Made by a program: the position numbers and the translations under genes. DNA of 43,629 bases from Clostridiales bacterium (GTDB lineage: Bacteria > Bacillota > Clostridia > Oscillospirales > Oscillospiraceae). Location of the stretch: the NCBI GenBank assembly GCA_029267755.1, contig JAJUHS010000003.1, positions 1 to 43,629 of the forward strand. Direction: 5' to 3'. The notes beneath the pieces were generated by a model, which worked only from the letters and a program-made list of their open reading frames with translations, was not told where the DNA came from and did not search any database. Shown one piece after another: positions 30,574-42,268 of the stretch (position 1 is the stretch's first letter; each line of letters opens with the position of its first letter).

Positions 30574-31755
30574 CTACTGGTCAAGGGCATCCATAAGTGC
30601 GGGAATAACCTTGTAGAGGTCGCCGACGATGCCGTAATCGGCAACCTCAAAAATCGGAGCGTTTTCATTTTTGTTTATAGCGACGATGTAGCCTGAGTTC
30701 TGCATACCGGCAAGGTGCTGGATAGCGCCGGAAATTCCGCAGGCTATGTAGAGTTTAGGCTTTACCGTCGTACCGGTCTGTCCGACCTGGTGTGAATGTT
30801 CTATCCAGCCGGCGTCGACCGCGGCGCGGGAAGCGCCGACAGTTGCGCCGAGCTTCTTGGCAAGGGCCTCGATGAGCTTGAAGCCCTCTGCGCTGCCGAG
30901 GCCGGCTCCGCCGGATACTATTATCTCAGCGTCCGTGAGGGACACGATTTCCTTGGTGCTCTTCACAATTTCTAGAACCTCAGTGCGTATATCGCCGGCC
31001 TTGAAAACCGTCTTGAGCGGAATTACCTCGCCCTTACGGGAATCGTCGCGCACTGCTTTTTCCATAACGCCCGGACGGACGGTTGACATCTGCGGGCGGT
31101 GGTGGGGGCAAACGATTGTGGCCATAAGGTTTCCGCCGAAGGCGGGACGGGTCTGCTTTATTTTTCTGTCCTCGGGGTCTATCTCAAGCTTTGTGCAGTC
31201 GGCGGTGAGGCCGGTTCCGCACTTGACGGCGAGGCATGGGCCAAGGTCACGGCCGATATGTGTCGCGCCGAGCAGGACTATCTCGGGCTTATACTTGTTT
31301 ATAGCCTCGTAGATTACCTTGGTATAGCCGTCTGTCGTGTAGGTCTTGAGCTCAGGGGAGTTGGCGTAATAAACTTTATCCGCTCCATAAGCGATAAGCT
31401 CCTTTGCAAGTTCATCTATGTTTTCACCGCAGAGAATAGCGCACAGCTCACACCCAATTTCGGACGCTAGCTTTCTGCCTTCCCCCAAAAGCTCAATGGA
31501 AACGCCCATGAGCTTGCCGTCGCGCTGCTCGGCAAAGACCCATACGTTATGGAAGGATGAGATGTTCGGTGTATGTACAGCTTCATCAGTTTTCTCGATA
31601 GCGGCAAAGGGACAGACATCAACGCAGGCTCCGCAGCTTGTGCAGCTCGGCCCGATGACGGCGAGCTTCCCCTCCATGGTGATGGCATTGAAGGGGCAGG
31701 CTTTCAGGCATTTCTGACAGCCCTTGCACTTCTCATCTATAATATTTACAGCCAT
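30574..31755 (-). CDS. etfA: Electron transfer flavoprotein alpha subunit with N-terminal 2x[4Fe-4S] ferredoxin domain (CarE-like)
   Basis: [16 protein letters not shown] and [16 protein letters not shown], then EtfA with [72 protein letters not shown]. Confidence 0.95.
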
Positions 31756-31779
31756 TTAGGTCCATATCCTTTCGTTTAA

Positions 31780-32574
31780 TCAAAGTACATGCTTCTCTCG
31801 CAGCTTCTGTACGAGAGCGCTGCTCATCTCGGTTACGGTGCCTGTGAGCATCTCGCCCTTGCCCTTCGGGGCGGGTGTAAAGCTTCTTAAAACCTGAGTC
31901 GGACTGGCCTTAAGTCCGCAGCTCTCTGGTCGTAGACCTATATCGTTTTCATTCCAGACCGTTACCGATTCTTTTTTTTCGCAGGCGTCGATTATCCTTC
32001 CTACGTTCATGTAGCGGGGCTCGTTAAGCTCCTTGACAGCCGTGAGCATGCAGGGAGTTTTAACCTTGATTACCTCATAGCCGTCTTCAAGCTGGCGCTC
32101 AACAATAATATAGCCATCGCCGAGCTCGCGCACCTTGCTGACATAAGTAACCACGGGAATGCCAAGACGCTGAGCAACCTGAGGGCCAACCTGGGCGGTA
32201 TCGCCGTCGATGGCCTGACGGCCCGCGAAGATAATGTCAAAACCGCCGAGTTTTCTGATGCCGGCGGCAATGGTAGTGGATGTAGCGCAGGTGTCCGCTC
32301 CGCCGAAGGCGGGGCTTGAAAGAAGGTAAGCTTGATCGGCGCCCATTGCCAGGCACTCATAAAGCATGATTGACGCCTGCGGCGGACCCATGGAAATAAC
32401 GCTTACAGTTGTTCCCGGGTATGAATCCTTCATTGTGAGAGCGGCCTCAAGTGCGTTTGCGTCGTCCGGATTCAATATGGAAGGCACTCCGTCGCGAATA
32501 AGGGTTCCCTTGACGGGGTCGATTTTTACTTCATTAGTATCGGGCACCTGCTTGGCGCATACTATTATTTTCAT
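31780..32574 (-). CDS. etfB: Electron transfer flavoprotein beta subunit
   Basis: MKIIVCAKQVPDTNEVKIDPVKGTLIRDGVPSILNPDDANALEAAL, FDIIFAGRQAIDGDTAQVGPQVAQRLGIP. Confidence 0.96.
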   Translation of the reverse strand: MKIIVCAKQVPDTNEVKIDPVKGTLIRDGVPSILNPDDANALEAALTMKDSYPGTTVSVISMGPPQASIMLYECLAMGADQAYLLSSPAFGGADTCATSTTIAAGIRKLGGFDIIFAGRQAIDGDTAQVGPQVAQRLGIPVVTYVSKVRELGDGYIIVERQLEDGYEVIKVKTPCMLTAVKELNEPRYMNVGRIIDACEKKESVTVWNENDIGLRPESCGLKASPTQVLRSFTPAPKGKGEMLTGTVTEMSSALVQKLREKHVL

Positions 32575-32587
32575 AATTACTCCCTCC

Positions 32588-33730
32588 TTATTTTTTTAGC
32601 AGTTCTTTGGATATTACTATCTGTTGAACCTGCGAAGTGCCCTCAAAGAGTGTGTTTACACGAATATCACGATACAGACGCTCTATGCGGTAGTCCTTTA
32701 TGTAGCCGTATCCGCCGTGTATCTGAAGCGCGTCATGTGCGATGCGACAGGCCGTTTCCGTTACAAAGAGCTTTGCCATGGAGCAGTGCATTCCGGCATC
32801 CTTGGCGTTTGTATCCTTTAAAACTGCGGAATTGTAAAGAAGTTCTCTGCAGGCCTGGATCTGCGTTGCCATCTGAGCTATCATAAATGAAATTGCCTGA
32901 AAGTCTGCTATTCTTTGTCCGAACTGCTTGCGGTTCTTGGCAAAGTCGATGGCCTCCTCAAGGCAGGCCTGAGCTACGCCGAGCGCAGTGGCGGCAACAC
33001 CGAGACGACCGACATCAAGTGTTTTCATGGCGTTGATGAAGCCCATGCCCTCTTCGCCAAGAAGACTGTCCTTATGTACGCGCACATCCTCAAGAATAAT
33101 GTCGCTGGTGGGCATTCCGATAATACCCATTTTTTTCTCGTTTCTTCCGAGGGAAATGCCCGGAGTATCCATGTCGACAATGAACGCGGAGATGCCCTTT
33201 GCTCCCTTGCTGAAATCTGTCTTAGCATATATGATCGCAAAATCGGCGATCGGAGCACCGGTAATAAAGGTTTTGCGGCCGTTGAGCACATAGTAATCGC
33301 CGTCACGCACCGCACTGGACTGAAGTCCGGCCGCGTCAGAGCCGGCACCGGGCTCTGTAAGAGCGAAGGCAGGAAACTTTTTGCCCTCCGCGACAGGTCG
33401 AAGGTACTTTTCAAGCTGCTCCGGCGTAGCAGCATTAAGCAGAGGGCCGCTGCCTAGAGAGTTTGCCCCGCTAATGTAAATGGAGGTGACCATGCTGACG
33501 CGGGAGATTTGCTCAACGAACAAAACGTAGGCAAGGTTGTCGCCGCCTTGTCCGCCGTATTCCTTGGGGATCTTGATTCCGAAAAAGCCGTTGTCAGTGA
33601 TTTTCCGATAGAGAGATTCGGGATATTTGCCGGTCTGATCGATCTCTTCCTGCATAGATTCGGGAATTTCCTTTTCAGCGAAATCTCTTGCTAGTTTCTG
33701 TATCAGCTGATACTTTGGGGAAAGAATCAT
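32588..33730 (-). CDS. Acyl-CoA dehydrogenase
   Basis: FFGIKIPKEYGGQGGDNLAYVLFVEQISR, FALTEPGAGSDAAGLQSSA, FGQRIADFQAISFMIAQMATQ, IHGGYGYIKDYRIERLYRDIRVNTLFEGTSQVQQIVI. ATG at 33730 (track ORF opens at 33838). Confidence 0.95.
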   Translation of the reverse strand: MILSPKYQLIQKLARDFAEKEIPESMQEEIDQTGKYPESLYRKITDNGFFGIKIPKEYGGQGGDNLAYVLFVEQISRVSMVTSIYISGANSLGSGPLLNAATPEQLEKYLRPVAEGKKFPAFALTEPGAGSDAAGLQSSAVRDGDYYVLNGRKTFITGAPIADFAIIYAKTDFSKGAKGISAFIVDMDTPGISLGRNEKKMGIIGMPTSDIILEDVRVHKDSLLGEEGMGFINAMKTLDVGRLGVAATALGVAQACLEEAIDFAKNRKQFGQRIADFQAISFMIAQMATQIQACRELLYNSAVLKDTNAKDAGMHCSMAKLFVTETACRIAHDALQIHGGYGYIKDYRIERLYRDIRVNTLFEGTSQVQQIVISKELLKK

Positions 33731-34185
33731 GGTGCGATAACTCCTTTCGTTATGTAAATTATTTTTATCGGACCGTAGTTTGTGCCGAGTCCTCTGCCGA
33801 TGCAGAGAGTCGAGAGATCGGACTTTGCTTTGGAGCATATTCTTAGGGGGGCGACATATCCGTGTTCCAAGAATATGAGGCGGGCTACGGGCTTAAGACT
33901 GATTTTTATCGGCAATTATTTTTAGTATTGATGCCGGTCGCATTTCCATATAAATCTATTAATCGCCTGAAAAAACAATTTTTTCTAATTATATCCAATA
34001 TATTTCAACAATTCAACTATAAAATAGGTAAAAATTCATATATTTTTAGTAAATACTATTATGATTTACATTCAAACAATTGGTTAAATTACTTAAATTA
34101 CAATTATTTTATTATCACATTTACAAATTGCAAAAATCACTTTTGCGTGATATATTTTCCATATCAATCCTTTCGGAGGTATATC

Positions 34186-34419: not shown

Positions 34420-34558
34420 GGTATTATCGCGATAGCATTTACTCTGTCGGTCTAAACATGCTAAATGTCTATGCGGAAACGGCGTTTGTAATCAATAATA
34501 TCGATACTTTAAAGAAAGGGTAGTGGAAGTTTCACAGTCCATTATACAAGGTGAAAAT

Positions 34559-35446
34559 ATGAATTCCATGCAGATTAATTGCTTTCTTACCGCAGGCCGA
34601 TGCCTTAACTTCACGCAAGGCGCCAGCGAGCTTTATATTTCACAGCCGGCGTTCAGTCATAACATTTCCGCGCTTGAAGAGGAATGGGGGATAGATCTAT
34701 TTACCCGTAACAACAAGCGAAAGGATACTAATCTGACACCGGCCGGAAAAATAATGTACGAAGGTATGAAAGGCCTATGGGAGCAATATGAAATCATTCT
34801 TCAGAAGGCCAGATACGTTCATGAAGGAAAGACCGGTACGCTTCGCATAGGACTTTCGGGCAGCAACAGGATAGACGAGCGTATCCTCACATTATTCGAT
34901 CGTTTTCAGGAAACGTTTCCAAAAATCGAGCTTTCATTTTTGAAAGGAAGCAACAGCGATTTGATAAGATCTTTGTTTAATAACACTATTGATATACTGT
35001 TTGCCTTGAAGATCGATGTTGAGGATAAAAATTGGCTGATATACAAAGAACTTTTCAGTATGGAGACAGCCCTGTATCTTAATGAAAATCATCCTATGGC
35101 GAAAAAGGAGAATTTATCGCTCAGTGATTTCAGAAATGAAACTTTCATTAACATTTCGTCAAAGGAATCCCCCGCTATAAACGCGCTTTTAATAATGGAA
35201 TGTGAAAAAGCGGGGTTTACGCCTAAGGTGATCGACGCCCCTGATTTAAATTCTCAAATCCTGTATATGGAGGCGGGAAAAGGAGTGGCGATTTGCAGCA
35301 CAAACAATATTGCCGCTTATAAAAGCCGTTTAATTCCCTTGCGTCTTCGCGATTTAAAACCGCTTGAAATGGTTATAGCATGGAACCGTATGAATGATAA
35401 TCCTTCCATAGGGCTCTTCGATTCTACTTATGAGCTTATAAAATAA
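34559..35446 (+). CDS. LysR family transcriptional regulator
   Basis: MNSMQINCFLTAGRCLNFTQGASELYISQPAFSHNISALEEEWGIDLFTRNNKRKDTNLTPAGK, then a LysR substrate-binding domain. Confidence 0.93.
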   Translation: MNSMQINCFLTAGRCLNFTQGASELYISQPAFSHNISALEEEWGIDLFTRNNKRKDTNLTPAGKIMYEGMKGLWEQYEIILQKARYVHEGKTGTLRIGLSGSNRIDERILTLFDRFQETFPKIELSFLKGSNSDLIRSLFNNTIDILFALKIDVEDKNWLIYKELFSMETALYLNENHPMAKKENLSLSDFRNETFINISSKESPAINALLIMECEKAGFTPKVIDAPDLNSQILYMEAGKGVAICSTNNIAAYKSRLIPLRLRDLKPLEMVIAWNRMNDNPSIGLFDSTYELIK

Positions 35447-35966: not shown

Positions 35967-35976
35967 GGTGGATGAA

Positions 35977-36768
35977 ATGATCAAAGTCGAAAAGGAATTT
36001 GCAAGGAAAATGTTCGATATAAGCGGCAGGGTAGCGCTTGTGACCGGCGCAACCGGCGCTTTGGGCGGAGCTGTAGCCAAGGCTTACGGCTATCAGGGTG
36101 CGAAAGTGGTTATGACAGCCCGAAATGCTTCAAAGCTCAGGGAATTGGAGGCCGAATTTAAAGCCGAGGGGATAGACTGCGCGGTTTTTGCGGCGGATCC
36201 CGGTTCTTCCGAGGAAGTTGGAAAGCTGATCAAATTTGTAGTCTCTACTTACGGCGAATTGAATATACTCACCGTTTGCCATGGGTACAACAATCCAAAG
36301 GGCATTTTGGAGCAGAGTGTTGAGGATTGGCAGAAGATCATGGACGCGGACCTTAAGAGCGTATATGTAGTCTGCAAGGCGTCGGCCGAGCAGATGGTGG
36401 CGCAGAACAAAGGCGGAAAGATTGTCGTTACCTCGTCGGCGCGCAGCAAGATGGGAATGAAGGGGTATACTGGCTACTGCGCGTCCAAGGGCGGCTGCGA
36501 TCTGATGATACAGTCCATGGCCAGCGATCTTGCGCCCTATCACATTAACGTCAATACAATTAACCCGACCGTTTTCCGGTCTGAGCTTACCGAGTGGATG
36601 TTCGACCCTGAATCGGCTGTTTACCAAAACTTTCTCAAGCGTCTTCCGATTGGGCGTTTGGGCGAGGTGCAGGACTTTATCGGACTGGCGACATTCCTTG
36701 CCTCACCAGCTTCGGATTTCCTGACGGGCGGCAACTATGACGCCACCGGCGGATATTGGAGCAACTGA
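35977..36768 (+). CDS. Short-chain dehydrogenase/reductase
   Basis: [33 protein letters not shown] (Rossmann), [14 protein letters not shown] (YxxxK), [19 protein letters not shown]. Confidence 0.92.
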
Positions 36769-37697
36769 TGAAAAGTATAAAAAACATTCTTGTCGTCGGT
36801 GGCGGCATGATGGGCAAAAACATTGCATTTGTGCTTACAGAAAACCCTGAGCTTCGAATAACTGTTACCGACATTGCTAACCAGGATATATGGTCGGGTA
36901 TCCGCGCAAATTGCCTGCAGCTAACCGAAAAGGGTATCATTTCGGAGCAGGAGATGAACTCCCGCCTCGGAAGGATTGAATTTACTACCGGTATTAGCGG
37001 CGCTTCCGTTAGGGAGGCAGACCTTGTAATTGAAGCCGTGTTTGAGGACATGGAGCTTAAGAAAAGGACGTTTGCAAACCTTGAAGAGTGCTGCGCCACT
37101 GACACAATCTTCTGTACAAACACTTCGGTAATGAGCCCGTCCGAAATAAGTGCCGAGCTGAAGCACCGCAGCCGCTTCGTGGGAACACATTTCTGGAATC
37201 CTGCGCACCTTATTCCGCTTGTCGAGGTGGTTAAATCCGACGCGACTTCGGATGAAACTGCTGAAACCGTAATGGAGCTGTTAAAATCTGTCGGCAAAAA
37301 ACCTATTTTGTGCAAAAAGGATGTGCCGGGCTTCGTAGCGAACAGGATGCAGCATGCCCTATGGAGGGAGGCAATCTCGATTGTAGAAAACGGCATTGCT
37401 GACGCGGAGACTGTCGACGAGGCTGTCAAGTATTCATTCGGGTTGCGTCTGCCGCAGCTTGGACCGCTTGAAAACGCGGATATGGTCGGCACGGATCTGA
37501 CCTACAATATCCATAGCTACATATTGAAACATCTGGAATCCTCCGCCGATCCGTCGCCTCTTCTTAAGGAGTTGTGCGATAAGGGGGAGCTGGGCTTTAA
37601 AACCGGCAGGGGCTTCAGAACATGGACACAAGAGGAAATACAAAAATCACGGGATGAATTAAATGCGTATCTAATAAGAGCGTTATACAACAAGTAA
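36768..37697 (+). CDS. 3-hydroxyacyl-CoA dehydrogenase family NAD-dependent dehydrogenase
   Basis: NILVVGGGMMGKNIAFVL, ADLVIEAVFEDMELKKRTFANLEE, NTSVMSPSEISAELKHRSRFVGTHFWNPAHLIPLVEVV, DVPGFVANRM; start overlaps the SDR stop (TGATG). Confidence 0.93.
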   Translation: MKSIKNILVVGGGMMGKNIAFVLTENPELRITVTDIANQDIWSGIRANCLQLTEKGIISEQEMNSRLGRIEFTTGISGASVREADLVIEAVFEDMELKKRTFANLEECCATDTIFCTNTSVMSPSEISAELKHRSRFVGTHFWNPAHLIPLVEVVKSDATSDETAETVMELLKSVGKKPILCKKDVPGFVANRMQHALWREAISIVENGIADAETVDEAVKYSFGLRLPQLGPLENADMVGTDLTYNIHSYILKHLESSADPSPLLKELCDKGELGFKTGRGFRTWTQEEIQKSRDELNAYLIRALYNK

Positions 37698-38672: not shown

Positions 38673-39527
38673 ATGGCTGATCTTAAAAACAAAAGAATTA
38701 TAACCGTGGCTACCACGGGCGCATGGCCGACAAAGGAGAACACCCCTAACGTGCCCATCGAACCGGCGGAAATTGCGGAGGAAATTTATAATTGCTGGAA
38801 GGAAGGAGCCGCGATTGCCCACATCCATTGCAGGGATAACGCTGGAAAGGCTGCAATGGTATTTGAGAAGTTCGAGGAGACGGTAAAGCTTATCCGCGCG
38901 AAAAAGGATTGCGACATTATAATAAACCTGACCACCTCGGGCGGTGTAAATCTGCTTGAGGAAGACAGGATAAGGCCGTTTTACGAGCTCGTGCCCGATA
39001 TGGCCTCCTATGACTGCGGATCTATGAACTGGCAGCATACTACGGTTTTTGAAAACAACCCCAAATTCCTTGAGAAACTCGGAACACTCATGCAGGAAAA
39101 GGGCGTAAAGCCTGAAATTGAAGTGTTTGATCCCGGTATGATATACAACGCGGCATATCTTCTGAAAAAAGGTTTCATTAAAGCGCCGCTCCACTTCCAG
39201 TTCTGTATGGGCGTGCCGGGCGGAATCGGCGCCTCCACAAAAAACCTTGTATTCATGAAAGATACGATGGAAGAAGTGGCGCCTGGCTCCACATGGTCGG
39301 CATTCGGCGTCGGTGCGACCGCAATGGAGATCCTGTACGCTACTGTTGCCATGGGCGGCAATGTCCGTGTAGGCATGGAGGACAATGTTTACTACAAGAA
39401 GGGCGTTCTGGCGGACAGCAACATGCAGTTCGTCGCGCGCGCAAAGCGGATAATAGAGGAATTCGGCTGCGAGGCGGCAACACCTGCCGAAGCCAGAGAA
39501 ATACTGGGATTAAAACCTAGGGCATAA
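38673..39527 (+). CDS. BKACE/Kce family (DUF849) beta-keto acid cleavage enzyme
   Basis: AAIAHIHCRD (HxH metal site), IIINLTTSGGV, PDMASYDCGSMNW, GVKPEIEVFDPGMI, LHFQFCMGVPGGIGASTKNLVFM, GNVRVGMEDNVYYKKGVLADSNMQFV. Track ORF opens upstream at 38598. Confidence 0.92.
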   Translation: MADLKNKRIITVATTGAWPTKENTPNVPIEPAEIAEEIYNCWKEGAAIAHIHCRDNAGKAAMVFEKFEETVKLIRAKKDCDIIINLTTSGGVNLLEEDRIRPFYELVPDMASYDCGSMNWQHTTVFENNPKFLEKLGTLMQEKGVKPEIEVFDPGMIYNAAYLLKKGFIKAPLHFQFCMGVPGGIGASTKNLVFMKDTMEEVAPGSTWSAFGVGATAMEILYATVAMGGNVRVGMEDNVYYKKGVLADSNMQFVARAKRIIEEFGCEAATPAEAREILGLKPRA

Positions 39528-39603: not shown

Positions 39604-40788
39604 ATGAAAGACATATACATAATAAACTGCTGCCGTACGGCAATCGGCAGCTTCGGCGGCTCACTTAAGGATGTCCCCGCCGCCGATCTGGGTGCGGTTG
39701 TTATAAAGGAAGTCCTCGTTCGCGGCGGCGTATCTCCTGAGCAGGTGGACGAGGTCATGTTCGGCTGCGTTCTTACGGCCGGACAAGGCCAGAATGTAGC
39801 CCGCCAGGCCTCAATCAAGGCGGGACTGCCGGTGGAAGTACCCGCGTTTACCATCGATATGGTATGCGGTTCCGGAATGAAGGCTGTCATTGAGGCGGCC
39901 AGGACTATAATTTCGGGAGATGCCGAAATTATAGTTGCGGGCGGCACCGAAAACATGTCGGCGGCGCCGTATGCCATCCCTTCAGCTCGCTGGGGCGCCA
40001 GAATGAATGATGGCAAAATTGTCGACTTAATGGTAAATGACGCCCTTACCGATGCTTTCAACAAGTATCATATGGGAATAACCGCGGAAAACGTTTGTGA
40101 CCGCTGGGGCATAACCCGCGAGGAGCTAGACTCTTTCGCTCTTTCTTCTCAGCGGAAGACCGCAGCCGCGCAGCGCGAAGGGAAATTTAATTCCGAGATT
40201 GTCCCCGTACAGGTTAAGGTAAAAAAGGAAACCGTTAATTTCTGCGTGGATGAATTCCCTCGCGCCGATACGGACGCCGCCGCGCTTGCCAAGCTGAGAC
40301 CCGCATTTAAATCCGACGGTGGAAGGGTTACGGCCGGCAACGCATCGGGCATCAACGATGGTGCGGCCGCGATTCTGCTTGCATCGGAAGAAGCTGTCAA
40401 AAAATACGGTCTGAAGCCGATGGCCAAGCTTATCGGATGGGGGCAGGGAGGAGTAGAGCCGGAAGTAATGGGCGTAGGTCCCGTGCCGGCCTCTAAAAAA
40501 GCTCTTGCAAAGTCCGGTCTCACCATTGCGGATATTGATTTGATAGAGGCAAACGAGGCATTTGCGGCTCAGTCAATTGCGGTTGCAAGAGACCTCGGAT
40601 TTGATATGGAGAAAGTAAACGTAAACGGCGGCGCAATTGCCATAGGTCACCCGGTGGGTGCTTCCGGCGCGCGCATTATCGTCACACTTCTACATGAAAT
40701 GCAGAAACGTCCCGATGTAAAGCGCGGCCTTGCAACCCTTTGCATAGGCGGAGGCATGGGTACCGCTACTGTATTTGAGAAGTGCTGA
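39604..40788 (+). CDS. Acetyl-CoA C-acetyltransferase (thiolase)
   Basis: [21 protein letters not shown] (nucleophilic Cys), [43 protein letters not shown]. Confidence 0.96.
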
Positions 40789-40824: not shown

Positions 40825-41514
40825 TTGGCTAAGTTTATATCCGTGGAGGAAGCCGTGGCGATGATTCCGGACGGCGCGTCCATCATGGTGGGCGGTTTTA
40901 TGGGCTGCCGCAATCCGCATAAAATAATCGACGCTTTATCAAAAAGCGGCAAGGGCAATTTTACCATGATATGCAATGACGGCGCTAAGCCCGCCGGCCC
41001 TACCGGTGAAGAGTATTATGGGGTGGCAAAGCTTATACATAATCATCAGGTTAAGCACCTGGTGGCGACGCATGTGGGGCTTAATCCCGAAGTTGGAGAG
41101 CAGATGAACGACGGCTCTATGAAGGTAGACCTTATTCCACAGGGCTCATTTGCCGAAATGATACGCGCCGGCGGAGCGGGGCTCGGAGGCGTACTTACTC
41201 CGACTGGTGTTGGCACTATAATTGAGGATAACAAGGAATTTACCCATTCCGTACAGGAAATTGACGGGAAGAAGTATCTGCTTATGAGACCGATTAGAGC
41301 GGATTTTGCGCTTATTAGCGGATTTAAGGTTGATAGGGTGGGCAACGTATGGTACAAGGGCGCTACCCGCAACTTTGCTCTGGCTATGGCGACTGCTGCC
41401 GATGTGGTTATCGTCGAGGCGGATAATATAGTCGAAACAGGTGAAATAGAGCCGGAGAATGTCATGACTCCGGGCGTCATTGTCGATTACGTTGTGGACG
41501 GGGGCAGTATATAA
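40825..41514 (+). CDS. atoD: 3-oxoacid/acetoacetate CoA-transferase subunit A
   Basis: VEEAVAMIPDGASIMVGGFMGCRNPHKIIDAL, IPQGSFAEMIRAGGAGLGGVLTPTGVGT; TTG start after AGGAGG. Confidence 0.93.
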   Translation: MAKFISVEEAVAMIPDGASIMVGGFMGCRNPHKIIDALSKSGKGNFTMICNDGAKPAGPTGEEYYGVAKLIHNHQVKHLVATHVGLNPEVGEQMNDGSMKVDLIPQGSFAEMIRAGGAGLGGVLTPTGVGTIIEDNKEFTHSVQEIDGKKYLLMRPIRADFALISGFKVDRVGNVWYKGATRNFALAMATAADVVIVEADNIVETGEIEPENVMTPGVIVDYVVDGGSI

Positions 41515-42173
41515 TGGATAAGGAAAACATAAAGAGTTATATAGTGGCCCGCGCCGCAAAAGAACTGAAAGACGGCGATGTCGTGAATCTTGGCATAGGA
41601 ATGCCTACAATGATCCCCTCATTTCTGCCGGAAAACGTCAGGGTGACTGTACAGGCCGAAAACGGTCTTATGGGCGTCGTTCCCTGCACGGAAGAGTCCT
41701 TGGAGCACAGCCTTTACAGTGTGGACGCCGGCGCGACTCCGGTCAAAGTGGCACCAGGCGGTTGCTATTTTGACTCAACGGTTTCTTTCGGGCTGATAAG
41801 AGGCGGACATGTGGACGTTACGGTTTTGGGCGCGCTCGAGGTTGATGAGAAAGGGAATCTCTCAAACTGGATCATTCCTGGAAAAAAGCTGCCCGGCATG
41901 GGGGGCGCAATGGATCTCGTGGTAGGCGCAAAAAAAGTTATCGTTACAATGGAGCACACTCAAAAAGGGGAGCCCAAGATACTGAAAAATTGTCGTTTGC
42001 CTTTAACCGCACTAAATTGCGTGGACCTTATCATTACAGAAATGGGCGTAATTGAGGTTACTGAGGAAGGATTAAAACTGGTGGAAATCAATCCCGAGTA
42101 TACACCGGAACAGGTCCAGAAAGCGACCGAGGCAAGACTTATAATCTCAGAAAATCTCAAACCAATGGTTTGA
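41514..42173 (+). CDS. atoA: 3-oxoacid/acetoacetate CoA-transferase subunit B
   Basis: VNLGIGMPTMIPSFL, VQAENGLMGVVP (catalytic Glu motif), GGCYFDSTVSFGLIRGGHVDVTVLGALEVDEKGNLSNWIIPGKKLPGMGGAMDLV. Confidence 0.95.
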   Translation: MDKENIKSYIVARAAKELKDGDVVNLGIGMPTMIPSFLPENVRVTVQAENGLMGVVPCTEESLEHSLYSVDAGATPVKVAPGGCYFDSTVSFGLIRGGHVDVTVLGALEVDEKGNLSNWIIPGKKLPGMGGAMDLVVGAKKVIVTMEHTQKGEPKILKNCRLPLTALNCVDLIITEMGVIEVTEEGLKLVEINPEYTPEQVQKATEARLIISENLKPMV

Positions 42174-42234: not shown

Positions 42235-42268
42235 CCGGCAAGTGGTGGAAACTGCTTGCCGGTTTTTT
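42235..42268 (+). terminator. Rho-independent terminator of the cupin-atoA gene string
   Basis: ccggcaag (42235-42242) / cttgccgg (42255-42262), then TTTTTT. Confidence 0.88.

Follow-up and report, generated by a model that had tools for sequence, protein, structure and literature searches.

A BKACE-family protein from an uncultured clostridial lineage as a predicted triacetate acetoacetate-lyase in anaerobic phloroglucinol degradation

Phloroglucinol is a fragment of plant polyphenols. An anaerobic phloroglucinol pathway was described in Clostridium scatologenes, with the same gene set as reported here, thiolase and CoA-transferase included (PMC10470551). Its triacetate acetoacetate-lyase CsTAL (A0A0E3M5J5) is a member of the BKACE family and was demonstrated to form acetoacetate and acetoacetyl-CoA from triacetate (3,5-dioxohexanoate) and acetyl-CoA. 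The published signature of this lyase is Trp16, located where Kce of lysine fermentation has Glu14 (PMC10470551). BKACE15 from Paracoccus denitrificans (8RIO, 8RIP, 9HNF) also accepts 3,5-dioxohexanoate. Like the protein described here, it has no acid at the Glu14 position (Ile), but it shares ~34% identity with it, has a length of 310 aa with an insertion and belongs to a separate subfamily. BsfD from Burkholderia (9ZSC) is another BKACE and has, as the protein described here, Phe at the position of Kce Tyr145. It differs in its chemistry, which is an acetyl transfer followed by decarboxylation, and has the GxGR Arg (Arg226), a loop insertion and Arg91.

The BKACE-family protein encoded at 38673-39527 was characterised by its family, residues, fold, gene neighbourhood and phylogenetic placement. 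It lies in a window of 43,629 nucleotides, the whole stretch of clostridial DNA that was analysed, and its gene is the fourth in a run of seven on the + strand. The features are as follows.

34523 to 35446, + strand: LysR-type regulator 5' of the operon, assigned by profile; a regulating role is suggested by its position only
35968 to 36768, + strand: PGR, putative NADPH-dependent phloroglucinol reductase (SDR), assigned by Pfam SDR and the PDB match 5g4k/5g4l
36756 to 37697, + strand: TfD, putative (S)-3-hydroxy-5-oxohexanoate dehydrogenase (3HCDH fold), assigned by profile and CsTfD-like residues
37718 to 38656, + strand: DPGC, putative dihydrophloroglucinol cyclohydrolase (PF04199 cyclase family), assigned by profile and CsDPGC residues
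38673 to 39527, + strand: BKACE-family protein of 284 aa, predicted triacetate acetoacetate-lyase (TAL), assigned by profile match, residues, model and the published CsTAL signature
39604 to 40788, + strand: thiolase of the acetyl-CoA C-acetyltransferase type, assigned by profile, with a predicted role in splitting acetoacetyl-CoA as in PMC10470551
40825 to 41514, + strand: CtfA, acetoacetate CoA-transferase subunit A, assigned by profile
41514 to 42173, + strand: CtfB, acetoacetate CoA-transferase subunit B, assigned by profile
42235 to 42262, + strand: intrinsic-terminator-like hairpin at the operon end, a 12-pair stem followed by TTTTTT

As in the CsTAL cluster, PGR, TfD and DPGC, the neighbours that define a TAL cluster, adjoin the BKACE gene together with a thiolase and a CoA-transferase (PMC10470551). 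TfD has His145, Ser124 and Asn196 in the same spacing as His143, Ser122 and Asn194 of CsTfD and has retained neither of the HBD residues that bind CoA, with Ile at the Lys56 position and a residue other than Asn at the Asn221 position. This is the published signature of CsTfD, which keeps the three residues and has lost HBD Lys56 and Asn221 (PMC10470551). The metal motif HxGTHxDxPxH of DPGC is present as HTGTHCDAPRH, and its Trp20 and Tyr22 are found at exactly the published positions of CsDPGC, where they stand for Ile32 and Leu34 of isatin hydrolase (PMC10470551). The NADPH motif TR(S/N) is not present as a literal string in the window's PGR, which reads TARN, while the closest solved structure reads TGRN. 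The best PDB match of PGR was 5g4k/5g4l (E=1.8e-113, 67% identity over 263 columns), which we take to be phloroglucinol reductase. The sequence-only reading had left these neighbours unconnected to the BKACE, and it is they that give the pathway. A carnitine-type pathway, combining a 3HCDH with a BKACE, was rejected since carnitine dehydrogenase models scored far under their cut-off and the PF04199 enzyme would be left unexplained.

On the - strand, at 30574-33838, the window encodes an acyl-CoA dehydrogenase, EtfB and EtfA with two 4Fe-4S motifs. The set scored below cut-off with the model for acryloyl-CoA reductase and may serve butyrate formation.

The BKACE gene starts with ATG at 38673 with an AAGAGG box just 5' of it. 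Its product matched the Pfam profile BKACE (PF05853) with E=5.9e-106 and 354 bits over profile positions 2-274 of 274; this full-length match and the Zn triad (His-x-His and Glu) assign it to the family. Alignment to Kce (PDB 2Y7D) placed His50, His52 and Glu236 on the Zn ligands His46, His48 and Glu230, in agreement with the Zn-ligand elements recognised by the sequence-only reading. The same alignment bore out its two by-eye substitutions: the TGAE-type motif is altered to TGAWPT, with Trp18 in the column of Kce Glu14, and the GxGR segment lacks its Arg, with Ala215 at Kce position 209 (GVGA versus GIGR in Kce). An AlphaFold model (pLDDT 88.8, pTM 0.90) superposed on the Kce-substrate complex 2Y7F with a TM score of 0.91 and 39% identity; the structural comparison that had been called for thus supports the sequence register. 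The protein shares the TIM-barrel fold and the Zn ligands with Kce, and the alignment of relatives showed that Kce Glu143, Arg226 and Asp231 are all kept. It differs from Kce in Glu14 (Trp), Ser82 (Thr), Thr106 (Ser), Tyr145 (Phe) and GxGR (GxGA) as well as in its operon. Compared to CsTAL, the Trp is at the same site (Trp18 for Trp16), and the protein is two residues longer N-terminal of it. The best-scoring curated model, NCBIfam NF052387 (Lys_ferment_KCE), gave 309.3 bits at a cut-off of 382, and the NCBIfam model for 3,5-dioxohexanoate:acetyl-CoA transferase gave 241 bits at a cut-off of 430. Therefore, the protein is claimed by no curated model.

Judged by its sequence and setting, the protein is very probably the Zn-dependent TAL of an anaerobic phloroglucinol pathway. 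The proposed link to CsTAL runs via the published residues, the operon and the relatives. By analogy to the biochemistry of C. scatologenes, PGR would reduce phloroglucinol to dihydrophloroglucinol, the ring of which would be opened by DPGC to give (S)-3-hydroxy-5-oxohexanoate. TfD would oxidise this to triacetate, and TAL would use acetyl-CoA to cleave triacetate. The products, acetoacetate and acetoacetyl-CoA, would both be converted to acetyl-CoA by CtfAB and the thiolase. Kce binds the 5-amino group through a Glu, and Trp18 in its place would suit the uncharged methyl-ketone tail of triacetate. The enzyme and the pathway are already known and published; only the sequence is new. The window's own genome also encodes a homologue of phloretin/DAPG hydrolase, a possible source of phloroglucinol.

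The specificity of the Trp was assessed in 80 fetched loci of relatives with 65-94% identity to the window protein. The column of Kce Glu14 was readable in 79 of them and held Trp in 78 and His in one; DPGC was found within the fetched stretch at 51 of the 80 loci. The same TAL is present, at 88-94% identity, in genomes of the window's genus. As relatives were not to be chosen on the trait itself, an independent sample was drawn with Kce as query from 291 genomes of the class, and neighbours were judged within ~1.5 kb of the fetched loci. In this sample, DPGC adjoined all six Trp-type BKACEs, whereas none of the 23 Glu-type BKACEs had PGR, TfD or DPGC within that distance (Fisher p=2e-6 for 23 + 6 loci, with kinship not taken into account). 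In a tree of 69 rows, the Glu rows formed one group with a support of 100/99 and the Trp rows another with 99/96, the lone His row being placed inside the latter. TALs of the same clade were also seen in MAGs named Treponema, Accumulibacter, Spirochaetes and Actinomycetota (L022, L024, L025, L026, L027), which reflects either lateral transfer or mis-binned contigs.

A second setting was observed at 19 of the 80 TAL loci (L039, L047, L051, L054, L060, L075, L076, L078-L081 and others), where the fetched stretch contained TfD but not DPGC. A sigma-54 activator is present at 16 of the 19 and a short-chain fatty acid transporter (PF02667) at 14 of the 19, compared to none of the 51 DPGC loci (Fisher p=6e-11 for the transporter, kinship again not taken into account). 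A DPGC homologue was not found in seven of 16 tested genomes with such loci, though MAGs may be incomplete. The TfD-TAL-transporter loci look as if they served to import and consume an acid that other organisms release, be it 3-hydroxy-5-oxohexanoate, triacetate or a similar compound.

The only further BKACE in the window's own genome is a Gly-type paralogue (Gly at Kce position 14). On contig C61 of this genome, a paralogous operon (L113:7563-13221) comprises a sodium-solute symporter, CtfB, CtfA, a BKACE with Gly/Ala at Kce Glu14, a 3HCDH-like dehydrogenase and a PF04199 cyclase. This BKACE also occurs in five further genomes from the family, in four of them with the dehydrogenase adjoining. 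The operon resembles a parallel pathway that opens a ring or lactone.

Concerning the substrate, it seems very improbable that the enzyme acts on another uncharged or hydrophobic β-keto acid such as 3-oxohexanoate with triacetate as side activity. The distant relative BKACE15 does take several such acids, 3,5-dioxohexanoate among them; yet the operon would deliver triacetate specifically, and the association of Trp-type BKACE and DPGC recurs across many lineages. There is a similarly slight chance that the Trp-type enzyme acts on another β-diketo acid supplied by a cyclohydrolase that has another ring as substrate, in which case the cluster would degrade a related cyclic triketone by a route like that of phloroglucinol.

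The sequence-only reading had argued from both substitutions against an amino-keto acid and possibly for a hydrophobic or uncharged one. The part based on the Trp is sound and already in print, as the published reasoning for CsTAL likewise took the loss of Glu14 to favour an uncharged tail over 3-keto-5-aminohexanoate. The part based on the Arg did not hold, and altered substrate chemistry through its loss is hardly credible. The column is indeed occupied by Arg or Lys in 23/23 Glu-type Kce relatives, versus Ala in the window protein. However, it corresponds to Arg226 of BsfD (9ZSC) by an alignment with numbering consistent with the Zn ligand Glu247, and in the BsfD co-crystal Arg226 and Lys254 hold the 3'-phosphoadenosine of CoA. 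Among TALs, it varies between A, K, H, S, Q, P and R while the pocket is otherwise nearly unchanged. A column that contacts CoA and varies among TALs thus carries no information on the keto acid, and Ala215 was rejected as substrate determinant; the change would bear on CoA binding at most.

Arg254 of BKACE15 was proposed as catalytic base in early work, and Glu171 is the catalytic residue favoured by later structures. By alignment, they correspond to Kce Arg226 and Glu143, both present in the window protein. Residue 152 is Phe at the position of Kce Tyr145. Tyr was stated for all BKACEs at this position, and Phe may explain the different chemistry of BsfD (PMC12871164). Phe was found in all clostridial Kce- and TAL-type BKACEs sampled, which runs against this statement, and it was therefore dismissed as a mark of BsfD-like chemistry.

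A role as Kce of lysine fermentation, with 3-keto-5-aminohexanoate as substrate, can practically be discarded: Lys_ferment_KCE is the protein's best curated model and Kce 2Y7F its best structural match, but the score is below cut-off, Trp replaces the Glu found in 23/23 Kce-type relatives, the Glu-type clade stands apart, lysine-fermentation genes are absent among the neighbours identified, and no KamA-family match (lysine 2,3-aminomutase type) was found in its own genome with a control search positive in 9/14 genomes.

With the TAL of the phloroglucinol pathway as the preferred reading, an uncultured clostridial lineage would join the anaerobes equipped to convert polyphenol-derived phloroglucinol to acetyl-CoA. 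For the BKACE family, the residue at position 14 is a usable annotation marker to tell TAL from Kce, the nearest curated name for such proteins still being that of the lysine enzyme.
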